From positions 1 to 15,126 of the forward strand of contig JAUZQA010000028.1 of assembly GCA_030705665.1 (NCBI GenBank): a stretch of DNA of 15,126 nucleotides, written 5' to 3'. The position numbers were made by a program, and so were the translations under genes. This document shows, piece by piece, positions 1 to 14,145 of the stretch. Source of the stretch: Bacillota bacterium. GTDB taxonomy: Bacteria; Bacillota; Bacilli; Bacillales_B; DSM-18226. Each line of letters opens with the position of its first letter. Position 1 is the first letter of the stretch. The notes beneath the pieces are model-generated. The model did no database searches. It had not been told where the DNA came from and was given only the letters and a program-made list of their open reading frames with translations.

Positions 1-768
1 CCAAATAATAAAATACTTTGAATTATACCAATCTCCACTTTCTGGCACATCCGTTTGGTCACCCCAAACCTGAGGTGAGGCCGGAGGCAAATCAGCATAC
101 CAATCATAAAAACTTAATATGGTACCGCCAATTAACGATAAAAATCTTGCACCACCTGCGTAGCTAACCATTGACATTGCTGGTATTGGACTGAAACCCA
201 CAACTCTGTCAGGCCCATATTTCTTGATTGTATAAATTGAGGCAGCGGCAATCATTTGACAAACCTCTTTCCAGGATCCGCGCACAAACCCGCCTTTGCC
301 TCTCGCTTTAACATATTGCTCACGTTTTTTGGGGTCGGTCACAATATTTTCCCATGCTTTAACTGGATTTTCCGCTCTTTCTAGTTCATCTTTCCATAAA
401 GCATAAAGATCCCCCCGTACATACGGATATTTCACACGTGTAGGACTATATGTATACCATGAAAAACTGGCCCCTCGAGGGCATCCCCTTGGTTCATATT
501 CAGGAAAATCATCACCAGTTGAAGGATAATCAGTTTGCTGGGTTTCCCAAGTGATAATTCCACCCTTCACGTGGATTTTCCAGCTGCAAGAGCCTGTACA
601 GTTTACTCCATGCGTGGAGCGGACTACTTTGTCATGACCCCAACGATTTCTGTAAACAGATTCCCAATCACGAGGACGCGGATTTTCCTCTGTCCATCCA
701 TCATTAATACGTTCTCCCCTCACCAAGTGTTTTAGGGAATGCAATAAATTATTTTTGCCCTTTTCCAT
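1..768 (-). CDS. narG: Respiratory nitrate reductase alpha subunit NarG, N-terminal 256 residues (cut by window edge)
   Basis: Catalytic Mo-bisMGD subunit of the membrane-bound quinol:nitrate oxidoreductase NarGHI, which reduces nitrate to nitrite at the cytoplasmic face. I translated the minus strand. The N-terminal [4Fe-4S] (FS0) ligand set is visible as H53-x3-C57-x3-C61 and C96 (STHGVNCTGSCSWK and EPRGCPRG). The conserved GPDRVVGFSPIPAMSMVSYA and SFYDWYADLPPASP segments follow; the latter (residues 219-232) contains the Asp region that ligates molybdenum in E. coli NarG. The start is the ATG at 768, about 5 bases after a strong AAGGGGTGAT site (773-782). This start lies inside the 3' end of the preceding small gene, with a 20-base overlap. 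The remaining roughly 970 residues, and presumably narHJI, lie beyond base 1. No frameshift is seen in the visible part. Confidence 0.97.
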   Translation of the reverse strand, partial: MEKGKNNLLHSLKHLVRGERINDGWTEENPRPRDWESVYRNRWGHDKVVRSTHGVNCTGSCSWKIHVKGGIITWETQQTDYPSTGDDFPEYEPRGCPRGASFSWYTYSPTRVKYPYVRGDLYALWKDELERAENPVKAWENIVTDPKKREQYVKARGKGGFVRGSWKEVCQMIAAASIYTIKKYGPDRVVGFSPIPAMSMVSYAGGARFLSLIGGTILSFYDWYADLPPASPQVWGDQTDVPESGDWYNSKYFIIW

Positions 769-1045
769 TTATATCACCCCTTCTTTCTACAAATTCACCC
801 AATGGATTGAAATTCTCTCCTAGTATTCGAAATGATCTCTCTCCAGCACTTAATTCCTCTACAAATACGTCCCAGCTAACAGCATTTGCTGCAGCTAAAA
901 TAAGATGCTGCAATGTATTCATATCGTCAATTTCATAGATTCTCTCTATTATTGCCCCATTAATACCCCCGAATCTCATTTGTAATACATTTATTAAATC
1001 TTCCCGATCATCAACTAGAAACGCATCGGATTCAAATGAAAACAA
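749..1045 (-). CDS. Unrecognised 98-aa acidic protein overlapping narG
   Basis: No confident family. The protein is acidic and mostly helical in appearance, with an N-terminal block (residues 8-45: DAFLVDDREDLINVLQMRFG, then IERIYEIDDMNTL) and a second helix with LILAAANAVSWDVFVEEL. The pattern RFG-x-I...I-x-x-I-x-D-x-x-x-L-x-x-L...A...S-W-x-x-F loosely recalls the C-terminal helical segment of Rpn/DUF4351-type proteins; that is only an impression. No Cys or His cluster suggests metal binding. The start is TTG at 1045, with AAGGGG about 10 bases upstream; no in-frame ATG or GTG gives a comparable site. It begins 17 bases after the preceding gene's stop. Its last six codons overlap narG, and the narG ribosome binding site lies inside its coding sequence, so translation of narG is probably coupled to it. 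A role in nitrate reductase expression or assembly is inferred from position only. Confidence 0.8.
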   Translation of the reverse strand: MFSFESDAFLVDDREDLINVLQMRFGGINGAIIERIYEIDDMNTLQHLILAAANAVSWDVFVEELSAGERSFRILGENFNPLGEFVERRGDINGKGQK

Positions 1046-1062
1046 TCCCTTACAACCCCTTT

Positions 1063-1359
1063 TTAAAGCTTGATCATTTTATAATAATCAGCAATTAAAA
1101 TAGACTTACATTTTTCTGCCGCTTCTTCAAAGAATTGAATGATCTTATTATCTGGATTTTCAGCCTGTTTACAGCTGACATAGGTGGAAACAAACATAGA
1201 AAAATCAGAAGAAAACCTTAAGGTAACATTCATTCCCTGGTTAATTTTTAGCACATATGCCTGCACCTCATAGGAATGGATGTGGTGATTTGAAAAGACT
1301 TCAATCATTTTCTTGTACAATTGCGGTGCAGCAAAACGTAATAACCGTTCCTCCAGCAT
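1063..1359 (-). CDS. Unrecognised 98-aa protein of the narG leader cluster
   Basis: I do not recognise a family. The sequence reads as alpha/beta: an N-terminal helix (LEERLLRFAAPQLYKKMIEVF), a likely beta stretch (HSYEVQAYVLKINQGMNVTLRFSSDFSMFVSTYVSC), and a C-terminal helix (KIIQFFEEAAEKCKSILIADYYKMIK). There are two Cys and several His but no recognisable metal motif, and no signal peptide or membrane segment. An upstream ATG at 1377 gives 104 residues but has only a weak AGAAAG ahead of it. The ATG at 1359 (MLEERLL) has a strong AAGGTGGT site (1366-1373) at ideal spacing and is preferred. The gene follows the hemerythrin gene's stop closely and precedes the 98-aa gene by 17 bases, so the three genes and narG look like one operon. 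Confidence 0.8.
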   Translation of the reverse strand: MLEERLLRFAAPQLYKKMIEVFSNHHIHSYEVQAYVLKINQGMNVTLRFSSDFSMFVSTYVSCKQAENPDNKIIQFFEEAAEKCKSILIADYYKMIKL

Positions 1360-1365
1360 TTCCAT

Positions 1366-1373
1366 ACCACCTT
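1366..1373 (-). promoter_or_regulatory. Ribosome binding site deciding the start at 1359
   Basis: AAGGTGGT on the minus strand lies inside the first codons of the longer 1377-start reading frame, 6-7 bases from the ATG at 1359. It directly abuts the ATG at 1363-1365, too close for use. It therefore favours the 98-residue form over the 104-residue form. Confidence 0.6.
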
Positions 1374-1383
1374 CCATTTCTTT

Positions 1384-1815
1384 CTATTTGGTATCATTCG
1401 TATTATTTAGGAGTTTATTCATTTCATCTTCGTTATGAATAGAATCTATAACAATAAGAGATTCCATTAATGACAACGTCCATTCATTCACTTCATTTTT
1501 TGATAACTGTACTTTTATTTGCTCAACAATTCGGCGCATCAAATCATGATCTCGAGTAAGTTGTATTATAAGATGATGTAACTTCGGATTCTCTTTGACC
1601 ATTTCGGTATATAAACCTTCTTCTTCTGCTTCTGCATGTTTAAGTGTTCGTGATTCCCATTGCTCCACCAGTACTTCAGCAACTTGGAAGGCCTTTTCTT
1701 TTTGTTCCTTCTGTAAACACAAACGAAATAATTCATTTAATTCTTTTGCTTCATTTAACGCTGCCTCATGAATTGAATTATGCGCATCCTGTTTCTTCAA
1801 ACTAGGTCCAGACAA
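1384..1815 (-). CDS. Hemerythrin-like (HHE) di-iron domain protein, first gene of the narG leader cluster
   Basis: A 143-residue, all-helical, soluble protein with the ligand pattern of HHE cation-binding/hemerythrin-like domains: H16 in an N-terminal helix, H60-x3-E64 (KHAEAEE), H90 (LTRDHD) and H127-x3-E131 (IHNEDE). Proteins of this type bind non-haem di-iron and are known to act as O2 or NO sensors, carriers, or in repair of nitrosatively damaged Fe-S clusters (YtfE/ScdA/DnrN). It lacks the N-terminal ScdA domain, so it is not a full-length ScdA. The start is TTG at 1815, six bases after a GGAAGGG site. As the first gene ahead of two unknown small genes and narG, a role in NO or O2 handling during nitrate respiration is plausible but inferred. 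The His/Glu motif supports the family well; the exact function is open. Confidence 0.85.
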   Translation of the reverse strand: MSGPSLKKQDAHNSIHEAALNEAKELNELFRLCLQKEQKEKAFQVAEVLVEQWESRTLKHAEAEEEGLYTEMVKENPKLHHLIIQLTRDHDLMRRIVEQIKVQLSKNEVNEWTLSLMESLIVIDSIHNEDEMNKLLNNTNDTK

Positions 1816-1861
1816 TGACGTCCCTTCCTTTCTTCCGCTTTTATCGTTTCCTAAACATTGG

Positions 1862-1901
1862 AATATTATTTAAATATAACAATACCGTTAGAAATAATAT
1901 T
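1862..1901. repeat. Nested inverted repeat upstream of the narG leader cluster
   Basis: Perfect 10-bp arms AATATTATTT (1862-1871) and AAATAATATT (1892-1901) flank a 20-base centre that itself contains a smaller inverted repeat, TAAC-N6-GTTA. On the minus strand the segment includes an extended -10-like TGTTATATT (1873-1881) with no good -35, about 50 bases ahead of the TTG start. It could be an operator or activator site over a promoter, or a 5'-leader hairpin. No canonical FNR box (TGTGA-N6-TCACA) was seen in 1816-2131. Confidence 0.4.
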
Positions 1902-1911
1902 AATCTTTTCC

Positions 1912-1935
1912 AATAGGCTTATTTCTAAACCTATT
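1912..1935 (-). other. Ten-bp hairpin with GAAA loop, minus strand
   Basis: Read on the minus strand, AATAGGTTTA and TAAGCCTATT pair over ten positions (one G-U) around a GAAA tetraloop. On the plus strand the same position is a C/A mismatch, so the fold favours minus-strand RNA. There is no T tract after it, so it is not a normal terminator. It may sit in the 5' leader of the nar cluster transcript or just upstream of its promoter. Confidence 0.35.
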
Positions 1936-2069
1936 CTGGCCGATATAAAGATGAATGAACTAGGCTTCCTTTCTAGAGTCAGTTTTTTTCATAGTAAAAT
2001 CTATTGCATCAGGCATTCCACCCAATAAATACATTTGTCCTCTACAGGAAGAATAACACTTGATTCTTT

Positions 2070-2097
2070 TTGACTTTTGCGTAATAATAGATACAAA
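2070..2097 (+). promoter_or_regulatory. Candidate sigma-A promoter of thrD
   Basis: TTGACT (2070-2075) and TACAAA (2092-2097) are separated by 16 bases, about 35 bases ahead of the start codon. No lysine riboswitch or T-box structure fits in the short leader. Confidence 0.4.
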
Positions 2098-2131
2098 ATT
2101 TGAGAATTATAATTGATCAGGAGATGTTAGG

Positions 2132-3493
2132 ATGAAGGTAGTAAAATTTGGGGGTTCTTCTTTAGCCTCTGGTGAACAATTAGATAAAGTATTTAAAATC
2201 GTTATGTCAGACTCAGAACGAAAAGTTGTTGTTGTTTCAGCACCAGGAAAAAGATTTTCAGATGACATCAAAGTGACTGATTTGTTAATTGCACTTGCAG
2301 AAAAAGCTCTTTCTTCTAGTAATACAGATACAGAATTAAATGCTTTACTAGAGAGGTATAACAATATTGCCAAAGAGGTAAACCTTTCTCCTAACATAAT
2401 TGATATAATTCGAGAGGATTTACTTAATCGGATAAAGGCTGATAAAACGAATGAAGCGCAGTATATCGACCTATTAAAAGCTAGTGGTGAGGATAATAAC
2501 GCGAAGCTGGTAGCTGCTTATTTTCAAAACAAAGGCGTTGAGGCTAGCTATGTAGACCCGAAAGAAGCAGGACTGCTTGTTACAAATGAACCTGGTAATG
2601 CCCAAGTGTTACCAGATTCATATAATCGTCTTTACCAGCTTCGTGAAAAATCAGGAATTTTAATCTTCCCTGGATTTTTTGGGTATAACGAAAATGGAGA
2701 AGTTGTAACTTTTTCAAGGAGCGGCTCAGATATAACTGGTTCAATTTTAGCAAATGGAGTAAAAGCTGATTTGTATGAAAACTTTTCAGATGTAGATGCA
2801 GTGTATTCAGTTAACCCCAATATAATCAAAAATCCAAATGAAATTCGTGAAATCACCTTTAGAGAAATGAGAGAACTTGCCTATGGCGGTTTTTCTGTAT
2901 TTCATGATGAGGCCCTTTATCCTGCTTTTCTTGCAGGAATCCCTGTTAATGTGAAAAATACAAATAATCCTGCAGCACCCGGGACTTTAATCGTGAAACA
3001 CCGAACAAATCAAAACGGCCCTGTTATTGGAATATCCAGTGAAAAAGGATTTTGCAATATTTATGTTCGTAAATATTTGATGAACAGAGAAATCGGCTTT
3101 GGAAGCAGGTTATTAAAGATATTAGAAGATTACGGTTTATCCTATGAGCATACTCCTTCAGGAATTGATGATCTATCTGTCATTTTACGTCATAGTCAAA
3201 TGGACCAAGATATGGAACAAGAAATCATCAGCCGCATTAAACATGAGCTTAGGGCGGACGAGGTACATGTAATTCCAAATATCGCCTTAATTATGGTAGT
3301 TGGTGAAGGAATGCGTCATAATATTGGAACAATGGCAAGAGCATCTAAAGCGTTAGCGCAAAGCTCGATTAATATTGAAATGATTAACCAAGGTTCCTCT
3401 GAAGTAAGCATGATGTTTGGGGTAAAAGAAAAAGAGGAGAAAAAAGCAGTTCAAGCACTTTACGAAGAATTTTTTGTTGGTGTAATGGTTTAA
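2132..3493 (+). CDS. thrD: Aspartate kinase, ThrD/YclM type (aspartokinase III)
   Basis: Phosphorylates L-aspartate to 4-phospho-L-aspartate, the first step to lysine, threonine, methionine and diaminopimelate. The 453-residue protein matches the single-chain YclM/ThrD aspartokinase of Bacillus in length and throughout its sequence. It shows the N-terminal kinase motif VKFGGSSLA (residues 4-12), SGEDNNAK and TNEPGNAQVLP in the catalytic domain, TFSRSGSDITGS, and a C-terminal ACT regulatory region ending INQGSSEVSMMFGV. In B. subtilis this isozyme responds to lysine plus threonine; the same is expected here but not shown. The start ATG has AGGAG eight bases upstream. The gene stands alone between its own promoter and a strong terminator, and is divergent from the nar leader cluster. 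Confidence 0.96.
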   Translation: MKVVKFGGSSLASGEQLDKVFKIVMSDSERKVVVVSAPGKRFSDDIKVTDLLIALAEKALSSSNTDTELNALLERYNNIAKEVNLSPNIIDIIREDLLNRIKADKTNEAQYIDLLKASGEDNNAKLVAAYFQNKGVEASYVDPKEAGLLVTNEPGNAQVLPDSYNRLYQLREKSGILIFPGFFGYNENGEVVTFSRSGSDITGSILANGVKADLYENFSDVDAVYSVNPNIIKNPNEIREITFREMRELAYGGFSVFHDEALYPAFLAGIPVNVKNTNNPAAPGTLIVKHRTNQNGPVIGISSEKGFCNIYVRKYLMNREIGFGSRLLKILEDYGLSYEHTPSGIDDLSVILRHSQMDQDMEQEIISRIKHELRADEVHVIPNIALIMVVGEGMRHNIGTMARASKALAQSSINIEMINQGSSEVSMMFGVKEKEEKKAVQALYEEFFVGVMV

Positions 3494-10330: not shown

Positions 10331-10780
10331 ATGAAGTTTTTCGTTTTTAAAAGAGAGACCGTTTTATATGTGTTGATTTCTGGTATTATCCTGGCAACCA
10401 TTTCAACGTGGTTTATTTTAAAAAAAGGGGATACAGTTGTTTTTAATGTTCAAAATGGACAAAATGTCCGCGAAATTCACATGGTAACAGGGGAATTTAA
10501 AACAACCATGAAAGATGGAACCCAAATTGAGTCCTACCGATGGGACCCTGGAACGATCTTTTTGGAAAAGGGGGAAAAAGTGAACCTCTATATTAGCGGA
10601 ATTAATGGAGAGGAACATCCCTTTTATATTGAAGGTACCAACTTAAAAGGAAATGTTAAAAAAGGCGAAGAAGTTGTTGTCCCCCTTCATTTTAATCAAT
10701 CAGGGACCTATCGTCTAATATGTAAAACGCATAATGACAAATCCCACAGTCCGATGATTGCATATATTGTTGTTAAGTAA
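10331..10780 (+). CDS. Membrane-anchored cupredoxin-domain protein
   Basis: A 149-residue protein with a single N-terminal membrane anchor (about residues 10-30, VLYVLISGIILATISTWFIL) and no lipobox, so the soluble domain is outside the membrane. Residues 35-149 read as a cupredoxin beta barrel. Candidate copper ligands are H96 (EEHPFYIEG), C131 and H134 (LICKTH), with H139 and M142 (SHSPM). C-x2-H followed by Met resembles a type 1 copper site with an enlarged Cys-Met loop; only one Cys is present, so it is not a CuA centre like that of cytochrome oxidase subunit II. Cupredoxins carry electrons in respiration or denitrification, or bind copper; the partner is not visible here. The start has AGGGGG about nine bases upstream; the GGAG next to the ATG is too close. 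It is a single gene with its own terminator. Confidence 0.82.
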   Translation: MKFFVFKRETVLYVLISGIILATISTWFILKKGDTVVFNVQNGQNVREIHMVTGEFKTTMKDGTQIESYRWDPGTIFLEKGEKVNLYISGINGEEHPFYIEGTNLKGNVKKGEEVVVPLHFNQSGTYRLICKTHNDKSHSPMIAYIVVK

Positions 10781-11093: not shown

Positions 11094-13319
11094 ATGGAAC
11101 AATGGCAAGGATTTGAAAAAGGAATTTGGACAAAAGAAGTAAACGTACGCGATTTTATCATGAAGAACTTTACACCATTTGATGGTGATGATTCTTTCTT
11201 AGCAGAAGCAACAAAAGCAACAAAGCAACTTTGGGAACAAGTAATGGAGCTTTCTAAACAAGAAAGAGAAAAAGGCGGCGTTCTTGATATGGATACCGAG
11301 ATCGTCTCTACCATTACCTCACATGGACCTGGATATTTAAATAAAGAACTTGAAAAGGTAGTTGGAGTCCAAACTGATCAACCATTCAAACGCTCTATGC
11401 AGCCATTTGGCGGTATTCGTATGGCGCAACAAGCTTGCGAATCCTATGGTTATGAATTAAAGCCTGAAATTGAAAAAGTTTTTACAGAATTCCGTAAAAC
11501 TCACAACCAAGGTGTATTTGATGCCTATACAGATGAAATGAAACTTGCAAGGAAATCAGCAATTATTACCGGTCTTCCTGATGCATATGGTCGTGGACGG
11601 ATCATTGGTGATTACCGCCGCCTTGCATTATACGGTGTTGATTTCTTAATCAAGGAAAAACAACAAGCATTACAGGAAACTAGCACAGTAATGACAGAAG
11701 AAAATATTCGTCTTCGTGAAGAGTTGGCTGAACAAATTCGTGCGTTAAAAGAATTAAAACAAATGGCTAAAGCCTATGGATTTGATATCTCTCTTCCTGC
11801 ACAAAATACTGTTGAAGCATTCCAATGGTTATACTTCGGATATTTAGCAGCTGTTAAAGAACAAAACGGTGCAGCAATGAGTCTTGGACGGGTATCAACC
11901 TTCCTTGATATCTATGTCGAACGCGATTTAGCAAATGGCACATTAACTGAAGAAGAAGTGCAAGAAATCGTTGACCACTTTATTATGAAACTTCGACTTG
12001 TAAAATTTGCTCGGACACCGGATTACAATGATCTATTTAGTGGTGACCCAACATGGGTAACAGAATCAATCGGCGGTATCGCAAATGATGGACGCGCTCT
12101 TGTCACAAAGAACTCTTTCCGATTCCTTCATACACTTGATAACTTAGGACCAGCTCCTGAACCAAATTTAACTGTTTTATGGTCAACCAGACTTCCTGAA
12201 AACTTTAAAAAGTTCTGTGCAAACATGTCAATTAAGACAAGTGCAATTCAATATGAAAACGATGAAGTGATGCGCCCTGAATATGGGGATGATTACGGAA
12301 TTGCCTGCTGTGTATCAGCAATGGAGATCGGTAAACAAATGCAATTCTTCGGTGCTCGTGCAAACCTTGCTAAGACTCTTCTTTACGCCATTAACGGCGG
12401 AGTTGATGAAAGATTAAAAATTCAAGTCGGACCACAATTCCAGCCTATTACTGGAGAAGTACTTGACTTTGACGAAGTGATGCAAAAATATGATCAAATG
12501 ATGGATTGGCTTGCTGGTCTATATATCAATACGCTAAATATTATTCATTACATGCACGATAAGTACAGCTATGAGAGAATTGAAATGGCTTTACATGATA
12601 CAAAAATTCTTCGTACAATGGCAACTGGAATTGCTGGTTTGAGTGTTGCCGCAGATTCCTTAAGTGCGATTAAATATGGCGAAGTAAAAGTAATCCGCGA
12701 TGAAAACGGGCTTGCCATTGATTTTGAAACAAATGGCGACTTCCCTAAGTATGGAAATAACGATGAACGTGTTGACAGCATTGCGGTAGATCTTGTTACC
12801 CGTTTCATGAAAAAACTGCGCAAATATCAAACATATCGCAACTCTGTACACACAACGTCAGTTTTAACGATTACATCAAATGTCGTTTATGGAAAGAAAA
12901 CAGGAAATACACCTGATGGACGTCGTGCAGGAGAAGCCTTTGCTCCAGGAGCAAACCCAATGCACGGTCGTGATACAAAAGGAACTTTAGCTTCCCTTTC
13001 ATCGGTTGCAAAACTTCCTTACAGCTATGCAATGGACGGTATTTCAAATACATTCTCAATTGTACCAAAGGCATTAGGAAAAGATGCTGATAGTCAAATT
13101 TCTAATCTTGTTTCAATTCTCGACGGTTATGCCATCAAGTCAGGACATCACCTGAATGTCAATGTATTCAATAAAGAAACACTTTTAGATGCAATGGAAC
13201 ATCCAGAAGAATATCCACAGTTAACAATTCGTGTTTCGGGTTATGCTGTAAACTTTATCAAGTTGACAAAAGAACAACAGCTTGAAGTAATCAGCCGTAC
13301 CTTCCACGAATCTCTATAA
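11094..13319 (+). CDS. pflB: Formate C-acetyltransferase (pyruvate formate-lyase)
   Basis: Glycyl-radical enzyme converting pyruvate and CoA to acetyl-CoA and formate under anoxia. The 741-residue chain is typical for Firmicutes PflB. Active-site cysteines C405-C406 are in IACCVSAM, and the radical glycine G716 is in RVSGYAVNF near the C-terminus. It begins [22 protein letters not shown], the usual PflB N-terminus, and contains [32 protein letters not shown] lies seven bases before the ATG. It is followed by its activase pflA after a hairpin, and preceded by a strong FNR/Rex-type control region, so expression is expected only at low oxygen. No damage or truncation is seen. Confidence 0.98.
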
Positions 13320-13340
13320 TTGATTAAGGAAGTTAAGCGG

Positions 13341-13364
13341 CAAGCCCCTTATTACTGGGGCTTG
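13341..13364 (+). terminator. Intercistronic hairpin between pflB and pflA (attenuator or mRNA-stabilising)
   Basis: CAAGCCCC and GGGGCTTG form a perfect 8-bp GC-rich stem with an 8-base loop. What follows is TCTCTTCATTTG, not a T run, so full termination is unlikely. It lies 21 bases after the pflB stop and about 13 bases before the pflA ribosome binding site. It probably lowers pflA relative to pflB by partial termination or by protecting pflB mRNA. Confidence 0.6.
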
Positions 13365-13392
13365 TCTCTTCATTTGAAAGGAGATCATCATC

Positions 13393-14145
13393 ATGAACGG
13401 AAATATTCATTCAATTGAAACATTAGGTACGGTTGACGGTCCGGGGATTCGCTATGTTGTGTTTGTGCAGGGATGTCTCTTGCGCTGCCAATTCTGCCAT
13501 AATGCCGATACTTGGGAAATAGGTAAAGGAAAACAAATGACCGTTTCCGAAATCATGGATGATCTTCTTTCCTATCTTCCATTCATTCAACCTTCTGGCG
13601 GCGGGATTACTGTAAGCGGCGGTGAGCCGTTATTACAGCTGCCATTCTTGTTAGAATTATTCAAAGCATGCAAAAAGAAAGGGATTCATACAACGATTGA
13701 TTCATCAGGTGGATGTTTCTCAAACACAGAACCTTTTTTGACAGAGCTTGAAGAATTAATGCAATACACGGACTTAATCCTCCTTGATTTAAAGCATATC
13801 GATCGAAAAAAACACATAAAGTTGACTGGTAAACCAAACGATCATATTTTGGAATTTGCTAAATTCCTTTCTGATCGCAATATACCGGTTTGGATTCGTC
13901 ACGTGTTAGTACCGACTGTAACGGATGATTCGCTGGATCTTCAAAAAATGGGTGAATTTGTTGGTACCCTTGAAAATGTTCAAAAAATAGAGATACTTCC
14001 CTATCATAAGCTTGGAGTATACAAGTGGGAAGCACTGGGACATGAATACCCTTTGAAAGGTATTGAGCCGCCCAGCTCAGACAAAGTTGAGTATGCTTAT
14101 AACATGTTAACAAAGCATTGGAAACAGCCTTCTGTAAATGAATAA
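13393..14145 (+). CDS. pflA: Pyruvate formate-lyase activating enzyme (radical SAM)
   Basis: Uses a [4Fe-4S] cluster and S-adenosylmethionine to generate the glycyl radical on PflB. The 250-residue protein has the radical-SAM C28-x3-C32-x2-C35 motif (GCLLRCQFCHNADTW), preceded by the PFL-activase signature ETLGTVDGPGIRYVVF. The SAM-binding GGEP-type motif is at GGGITVSGGEPLLQ, and DLKHID and the IRHVLVPTVTDD segment follow. Length matches the E. coli and Staphylococcus enzymes. AAAGGAG lies nine bases before the ATG. Cotranscription with pflB is expected through the intercistronic hairpin, and a terminator closes the operon. Confidence 0.97.
   Translation: MNGNIHSIETLGTVDGPGIRYVVFVQGCLLRCQFCHNADTWEIGKGKQMTVSEIMDDLLSYLPFIQPSGGGITVSGGEPLLQLPFLLELFKACKKKGIHTTIDSSGGCFSNTEPFLTELEELMQYTDLILLDLKHIDRKKHIKLTGKPNDHILEFAKFLSDRNIPVWIRHVLVPTVTDDSLDLQKMGEFVGTLENVQKIEILPYHKLGVYKWEALGHEYPLKGIEPPSSDKVEYAYNMLTKHWKQPSVNE

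Follow-up and report, generated by a model that had tools for sequence, protein, structure and literature searches.

A set of three small genes, encoding a hemerythrin-like di-iron protein (HHE) and two proteins of 98 residues each (O1 and O2), lies directly ahead of narG, which encodes the catalytic subunit of respiratory nitrate reductase, in a 15,126-nucleotide stretch of the genome of a Bacillota bacterium (contig JAUZQA010000028.1 of assembly GCA_030705665.1; this whole stretch is hereafter called the window). The arrangement recurs and is under selection, and the distribution of the genes strongly indicates that the set belongs to nitrate respiration. Nar-type nitrate reductase has a central part in nitrate respiration, as it has in the release of NO and N2O from soils by spore-forming bacteria; NarJ and two-component sensors are the accessories known for it. 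The conservation of a di-iron protein and small partners alongside one NarG clade, across Bacilli and apparently in a second class, points to a hitherto unknown step in the making, guarding or gating of this enzyme. The set could illustrate an antitoxin-type domain turned to respiratory use, and it is directly testable in culturable soil strains. The reading tentatively preferred here is of HHE, O1 and O2 as a cytoplasmic accessory module, one that may protect or mature NarG post-translationally.

The gene set in the window

The open reading frames of the minus strand are ordered HHE, O1, O2, narG. HHE (1384..1815) is a 143-residue protein with a TTG start, assigned from family PF01814 and an alignment of its metal ligands; O1 (1063..1359) has 98 residues and no family; O2 (749..1045), also of 98 residues and with a TTG start, is a predicted helical protein recognised from its homologues, a profile-profile match and a structural model. 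The narG gene (1..768, ATG at 768) is cut by the window edge after 256 N-terminal residues, so that the downstream side of this nar cluster lies beyond the edge; the fragment matches TIGR01580 (E 3e-133), PF00384 and PF14710. For O1, the start at 1359 is preferred to an in-frame ATG upstream at 1377: GGAAGGTGG is located 7 bases before it, and most close homologues use the same start. The gaps are then 24 bases between HHE and O1 and 17 bases between O1 and O2, and the end of O2 overlaps the start of narG by 20 bases in the sequence (749..768), bearing out the head-to-tail layout of HHE and two 98-residue proteins before narG that was described in an initial annotation of this DNA. A Shine-Dalgarno-like stretch, judged by eye, precedes all four starts, including AAGGGGTGAT for narG (773..782, minus strand, within O2) and AAAGGAAGG for HHE (1823..1831, minus strand).

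No terminator-like site was found in positions 700-2140, and so none between HHE and narG; promoter-like sites in the same interval were not in excess over shuffled sequences. The presumed promoter region of the operon (1816..2131, minus strand) extends from HHE to a divergent aspartokinase gene. Among 76 related loci, 9 have an FNR-like box (at least 9 of 10 positions) in the 300 bases preceding HHE (shuffled mean 0.75), six of the boxes being perfect; elsewhere the pattern was counted 7 times in 81 kb of HHE-O1-O2 sequence and 6 times in 224 kb of narG sequence. This excess suggests that in some lineages an anaerobic promoter precedes HHE; in the window, no box was found there.

The closest named record found was that of Neobacillus sp. 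PS3-12 (L001), whose N-terminal NarG sequence is 98.8% identical. Ka/Ks ratios in this comparison were 0.11 for HHE, 0.21 for O1, 0.20 for O2 and 0.03 for the narG part; against a more distant locus (L002), synonymous sites were saturated for HHE and O2.

Recurrence ahead of narG

An O2-profile scan of a collection with one genome per species (84,980 species) yielded 79 loci; the scan relied on a DNA pattern for the two O2 peptides that are best conserved, and it therefore misses divergent relatives of O2. Neighbours were identified by tblastn with the four window proteins, HHE and O1 being counted at E up to 1e-4. The narG gene is just downstream of O2 on the same strand in all 79 loci, as only a remnant or fragment in two (L078 and L079), which excludes a chance arrangement. 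By the preferred starts, O2 and narG overlap or lie no more than 23 bases apart in 75 loci; the exceptions are L061 (gap of 71 bases), L071 (78 bases), and L067 and L079, in which the narG frame is interrupted. HHE is present in 76 loci and O1 in 71, and no room exists for O1 between HHE and O2 in L068, L070, L075 and L077. Thus, the three-gene leader of narG proposed in the initial annotation does recur, but not universally, O1 not being found by tblastn in 8 loci nor HHE in 3. The loci come from Neobacillus, Cytobacillus, Oceanobacillus, Virgibacillus, Alicyclobacillus, Aneurinibacillus, Ammoniphilus and others. A few records named Bacillus toyonensis, Bacillus thuringiensis or Bacillus cereus carry O2 (P0019, P0099, P0120, P0126, P0129), and the set therefore seems to have reached that group sparsely. 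At L078 (4997-6670; Alteribacillus iranensis), a remnant of O2 and the remnant of narG stand head to head with a second, inverted narG.

Co-occurrence with narG

The genes were surveyed in 299 genomes of one class (that of genome G001, judged to be Bacilli), with E-value cut-offs of 1e-6 for HHE, 1e-3 for O1 and O2, and 1e-20 for narG. The narG gene was found in 82 genomes. HHE was found in 41, of which 40 also have narG (Fisher p 2e-25, uncorrected for kinship), and O1 in 8, all with narG. O2 was matched in 20 genomes; 15 of the 18 with E below 1e-10 have narG, and the marginal matches in G237 and G272 (E 4.8e-4 and 2.5e-4) are in narG-less genomes. The 15 genomes with both O2 and narG contain O2 at 16 places, every one of them inside a nar cluster: directly before narG at 15, and 1.2 kb before it at one, with a gene for a TDT-type (tellurite-resistance/dicarboxylate) transporter between. 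All 15 genomes also encode HHE, downstream of the nar genes in G096 and on another contig in G191. These counts agree with the earlier claim that the genes go with nitrate respiration.

A second sample comprised 61 genomes of the class of G300, taken as another class and sharing no handle with the first. The O2 profile matched proteins in six of these genomes, strongly in three (G311, G300 and G355). In G311 the order is HHE, a 97-residue protein, O2, narG, and the 97-residue protein matches the O1 profile (hmmsearch 5e-5, hhalign 90.7%), so the complete trio appears to exist there; G300 has HHE and O2 plus a narG fragment. Rearranged orders were encountered in three genomes: HHE-O2-TDT-narG in G290, TDT-O2-narGHJI-narK-HHE in G096, and HHE-narGHJI-O2-TDT in G355. 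The order of the genes changes while the linkage to nar stays, which argues for function rather than inertia. TDT-type transporter genes were noted in or beside several set-bearing nar clusters (L137 4950-6059, L138 13143-14252, L139 14966, L258 9062-10126), on the basis of a TIGR00816 match below the cut-off for L138 and of similarity in L258.

Types of nar cluster and the NarG clade

Altogether, 95 distinct narG loci were read with their surroundings, leaving out L125, L126, L128, L129, L130, L131 and L149 as repeats of L159, L157, L158, L160, L162, L164 and L224, one frame of the broken narG of G053, and one repeat of a place in G050. O2 or O1 is encoded in 17 of these loci, none of which has nreB and nreC (14 were read for at least 12 kb downstream and three for only about 2 kb). 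Among the 78 other loci, 50 have nreB and nreC, a lower bound because several have less than 14 kb downstream, and 28 have neither the set nor nreB/nreC. The nreB and nreC queries were taken from clusters whose NreA matched NF038250 (6e-40, below the cut-off). The 4 kb upstream of narG contain HHE in 15 of the 17 set-bearing loci. They also do so in 9 of the 50 loci with nreB and nreC, where HHE is on the strand opposite to narG, and in 2 of the other 28 loci, where it directly precedes narG on the same strand. HHE thus accompanies narG as such, and the distinctive components are O1 and O2.

In a NarG tree of 90 of the 95 loci (those with a frame of at least 900 residues; the set-bearing loci L124, L127 and L154 drop out at contig or fetch ends), the 14 set-bearing rows fall within one group of 15 with a local support of 100. 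The fifteenth row, from G299, carries none of HHE, O1 and O2. This is strong evidence that O1 and O2 belong to one NarG clade and are largely confined to it. The mutual exclusion of the set and nreB/nreC across nar clusters is suggestive; with the set-bearing NarG forming a single clade, the separation rests on very few evolutionary events. Five genomes (G173, G113, G096, G117 and G001) have two nar loci, one with the set and one without, and the set-free locus carries nreB and nreC in G173, G113 and G096. The narJ gene is present downstream in all 10 set-bearing clusters checked, and so the set is not a NarJ replacement.

Two further loci were noted. Upstream of narG at L159 (G299:C46, at 5065) is an open reading frame (L125 423-941) for a 172-residue protein that resembles DUF2249 by eye. 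At L124 (G082:C6, a contig of 3777 bases; positions 1870-2626), a close relative of NarG (88%) comes with HHE-O1-narG, O2 being missing, and O1 runs into the start of narG.

HHE and its predicted di-iron site

HHE matches PF01814 with 29.0 bits, above the curated cut-off of 25.3. The predicted ligands H16, H60, E64, H90, H127 and E131 are all present in 75 of the 76 rows of the alignment, those of nre clusters included, and the remaining row ends before the last two; a few rows repeat one gene, leaving 73 distinct over residues 10-110. H12 is also invariant. The HHE alignment (A3) used 35 of 56 redundancy-filtered rows, and the companion alignments A4 and A5 used 62 of 62 and 53 of 60, with L071 added in A5, besides the window and some homologues. 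The ligands of YtfE are His84, His129, Glu133, His160, His204 and Glu208 in the available text of PMC9052748, where YtfE is proposed to be an NO-making nitrite reductase; nitrite sensing by way of NO is accordingly one possible use of HHE. A di-iron site with YtfE-type ligands may be taken, with moderate confidence, to suggest chemistry of NO, O2 or nitrite. NO/O2 sensing, Fe-S repair and NarG maturation, all suggested in the initial annotation, are each possible functions; it is just the ligand set that would favour NO chemistry. The nreABC-type nar clusters L141, L144, L146 and L147 contain a second hemerythrin-like protein with weak similarity to RIC (TIGR03652 E 7e-7 for the L147 copy, below the cut-off).

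O2 as a relative of DUF4351, and O1

None of the O2 members scanned reaches a Pfam cut-off, and the O2 of the window has no match to DUF4351 (PF14261), a family matched by 2 of 28 members with a best E of 0.017. In the second class, the O2 profile matches the ends of longer proteins (frames of 245-349 residues, some shorter; 9e-8 to 2.5e-4), which carry a repeat linker of the kind usual in Rpn-type proteins. For three of the six long proteins scanned, the best Pfam match is DUF4351, below the cut-off. Profile-profile comparison of O2 gave 97.9% with ten Rpn-type C-terminal ends, seven of which had been picked by the O2 profile, and 89.8% with three ends found by PF14261 alone (a search with four matches, of which three were aligned and the L236 frame was left out); the same ten ends gave 0.3% with O1 as a negative control. 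The kinship spans a 55-residue core (residues 13-67). Conserved positions of O2 include D13-R14-E15-D16-L17, R24-F25-G26 and A52-A53-N54. In the structural model of O2, helices are predicted at residues 4-25, 30-38, 42-54 and 58-70, with a mean pLDDT of at least 92 in blocks of residues 11-60 and a low-confidence tail. By these profile matches, O2 is distantly related to DUF4351, the domain with which Rpn nucleases end and which serves them for binding. O1 matched no family above cut-off in Pfam or NCBIfam and is modelled with an alpha-beta-beta-beta-alpha order (pLDDT 85). The initial view that both small proteins are orphans thus holds for O1 and no longer for O2.

According to the available text of a preprint (PMC10327210), the RpnS domains are produced on their own, dimerise as three-helix bundles, and block full-length Rpn; they are sometimes separate genes annotated as DUF4351. 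By this kinship O2 is best seen as a small binding domain, not a nuclease, and its likeness to RpnS suggests protein binding, with moderate confidence. No Rpn partner nuclease of an RpnL/RpnS system is encoded among the immediate neighbours of O2, which are O1 and narG.

Proposed function and alternatives

If the set is an accessory module of NarG, HHE, O1 and O2 would share a transcript with the respiratory nitrate reductase of one clade. The di-iron site of HHE would meet NO, nitrite or O2 threatening the Fe-S cluster and Mo cofactor of NarG, working either by NO binding or by donating iron in maturation or repair. O2, made next to nascent NarG, could serve as an adaptor that ties HHE, and O1 where present, to NarG; alternatively, it may keep NarG waiting for its cofactor. 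This reading is based on the description of RpnS, the studied relative of the O2 core, as a dimer-forming helical partner-blocker (PMC10327210, in the text available), on the presence of narG or its remnant after O2 at all 79 loci, the co-occurrence of HHE, O1 and O2 with narG in the survey of 299 genomes and the survival of the linkage to nar in rearranged orders, on the conservation of HHE ligands that match those of YtfE, and on the adjacency of HHE alone to narG in other clades too. The data point weakly to action of HHE, O1 and O2 on NarG itself. In a more specific version, which is quite doubtful, O2 would be an RpnS-like antitoxin-type domain that clamps new NarG in an inactive or protected state, HHE releasing or tightening the clamp in response to NO or O2, with O1 as linker; such a clamp would act on nitrate reductase directly, as a post-translational redox gate, in a clade without NreABC in the cluster.

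Several observations weigh against an accessory module dedicated to NarG. O1 is optional, as the 8 loci without it show, and G082 keeps HHE-O1-narG with O2 absent. O2-like proteins (E below 1e-10) are encoded in three narG-less genomes, G137, G159 and G201, although the small genes do not occur widely in the absence of narG; such wide occurrence is what the initial annotation would have counted against its proposal. Just 26 of the 95 loci have HHE in the 4 kb upstream of narG, many HHE-bearing genomes having it elsewhere, and the strong linkage of the set to narG within the clade partly reflects common descent. HHE has the hemerythrin domain only, with a single Cys and no ScdA_N cysteine domain; it has no match to the RIC equivalog TIGR03652 (E up to 1), and no YtfE structure was found in a search of its profile against the PDB. 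HHE therefore resembles YtfE in its metal site and is not a RIC protein. HMM-HMM comparison, as suggested in the initial annotation, linked O2 to DUF4351-type domains. Searches among PDB folds gave nothing significant for O2 or for O1, the O1 matches being at noise level. The free-standing O2-like proteins of the narG-less genomes (L118 in G137, L120 in G201, L259 in G159) have about 80-125 residues, and their neighbours look unrelated, with transporters in two.

An unlikely alternative is that the set senses and regulates nar expression in place of NreABC, the di-iron protein reading O2 or NO and O1 and O2 relaying the signal. The distribution of nreB/nreC (0 of 17 O1/O2 clusters versus 50 of 78 other nar loci) would fit such a replacement, as would the predicted kinship of RpnS with helix-turn-helix motifs reported in the available text of PMC10327210. 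However, HHE is found upstream of narG in 9 nreBC clusters and so is not an NreABC replacement, 28 of the 78 other loci show neither system, the exclusion rests essentially on one NarG clade, and neither O1 nor O2 contains a kinase or DNA-binding family above cut-off. Dedicated maturation, in which HHE would give iron or guard Fe-S and Mo-cofactor insertion while O1 and O2 act as NarG-clade-specific chaperones beside NarJ, is likewise improbable, if marginally more so. The overlap with narG, the clade specificity, and the small helical (O2) and alpha/beta (O1) models favour it, but NarJ is already encoded in the 10 set-bearing clusters checked, and family scans gave no NarJ/TorD-type match for O1 or O2. 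In keeping with the first suggestion of a maturation role separate from NarJ, the set is additional to NarJ.

It is more doubtful still that HHE is a generic nitrosative-stress protein with O1 and O2 as passengers through operon inertia. HHE does accompany narG in clades lacking O1 and O2, and the genes can be lost, as O2 has been in G082 and all three in G299; yet Ka/Ks ratios of about 0.2 indicate purifying selection, O2 has not left the nar cluster in three rearranged orders, and an O1-like gene occupies the same place in the second class. The accessory module thus remains the preferred reading, at somewhat less than even confidence.

Other features of the window

The gene divergent from HHE (2132-3493, plus strand) is of aspartokinase type, with AA_kinase and ACT domains. 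A cupredoxin-like protein (10331-10780) weakly resembles Sec-dependent nitrous oxide reductase in the C-terminal part of the latter (E 5e-5, below the cut-off). Two genes at 11094-14145 resemble those of pyruvate formate-lyase and its activating enzyme, presumably another anaerobic function near nar.

Comparison with known systems

No description of the HHE-O1-O2 set was found in the literature searched, which consisted of titles and the beginnings of abstracts, with most subscription papers outside its coverage. The terms 'hemerythrin', 'HHE' and 'nar operon' are absent from the available text, figures excepted, of a paper on the nar clusters of Bacillus azotoformans and Bacillus bataviensis (PMC3475470). 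One strain of Bacillus licheniformis has an extra hypothetical protein encoded immediately upstream of narG1, according to the available text of PMC4719734.

Among known accessory systems, NreABC of staphylococci and other Bacilli likewise accompanies nar clusters as an accessory set, and does so in the same class, but nreB and nreC are lacking from all 17 O1/O2 clusters, and no kinase, response regulator or GAF family was found in the set. DrpA and DrpB of Thermus are also small conserved proteins tied to the nar operon, which they are reported to modulate; in the available text of PMC6282519 they are DUF2249/DUF1858 proteins encoded downstream of nar, whereas the O1 and O2 genes lie ahead of narG and family scans of both proteins gave no match to DUF2249. 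NarJ (TIGR00684) is another NarG-linked accessory, but narJ is present besides the set.

The other likenesses are at the level of single proteins. HHE belongs to the same domain family as YtfE/RIC/ScdA (TIGR03652, PF01814) and shares with it a setting in nitrate respiration. The order of the four His and two Glu ligands is that of YtfE, and their spacing is nearly alike, 44-4-26-37-4 in HHE and 45-4-27-44-4 in YtfE (as numbered in the available text of PMC9052748); HHE differs in that its gene adjoins narG, and in the points set out above. O2 aligns through residues 13-67 with the Rpn C-terminal domain, RpnS and DUF4351 (PF14261), and RpnS, too, occurs as a separate gene (PMC10327210, available text); O2 differs in its linkage to nar, in its own conserved tail, GExFNPL, and in that the members scanned all fall below the Pfam cut-off.

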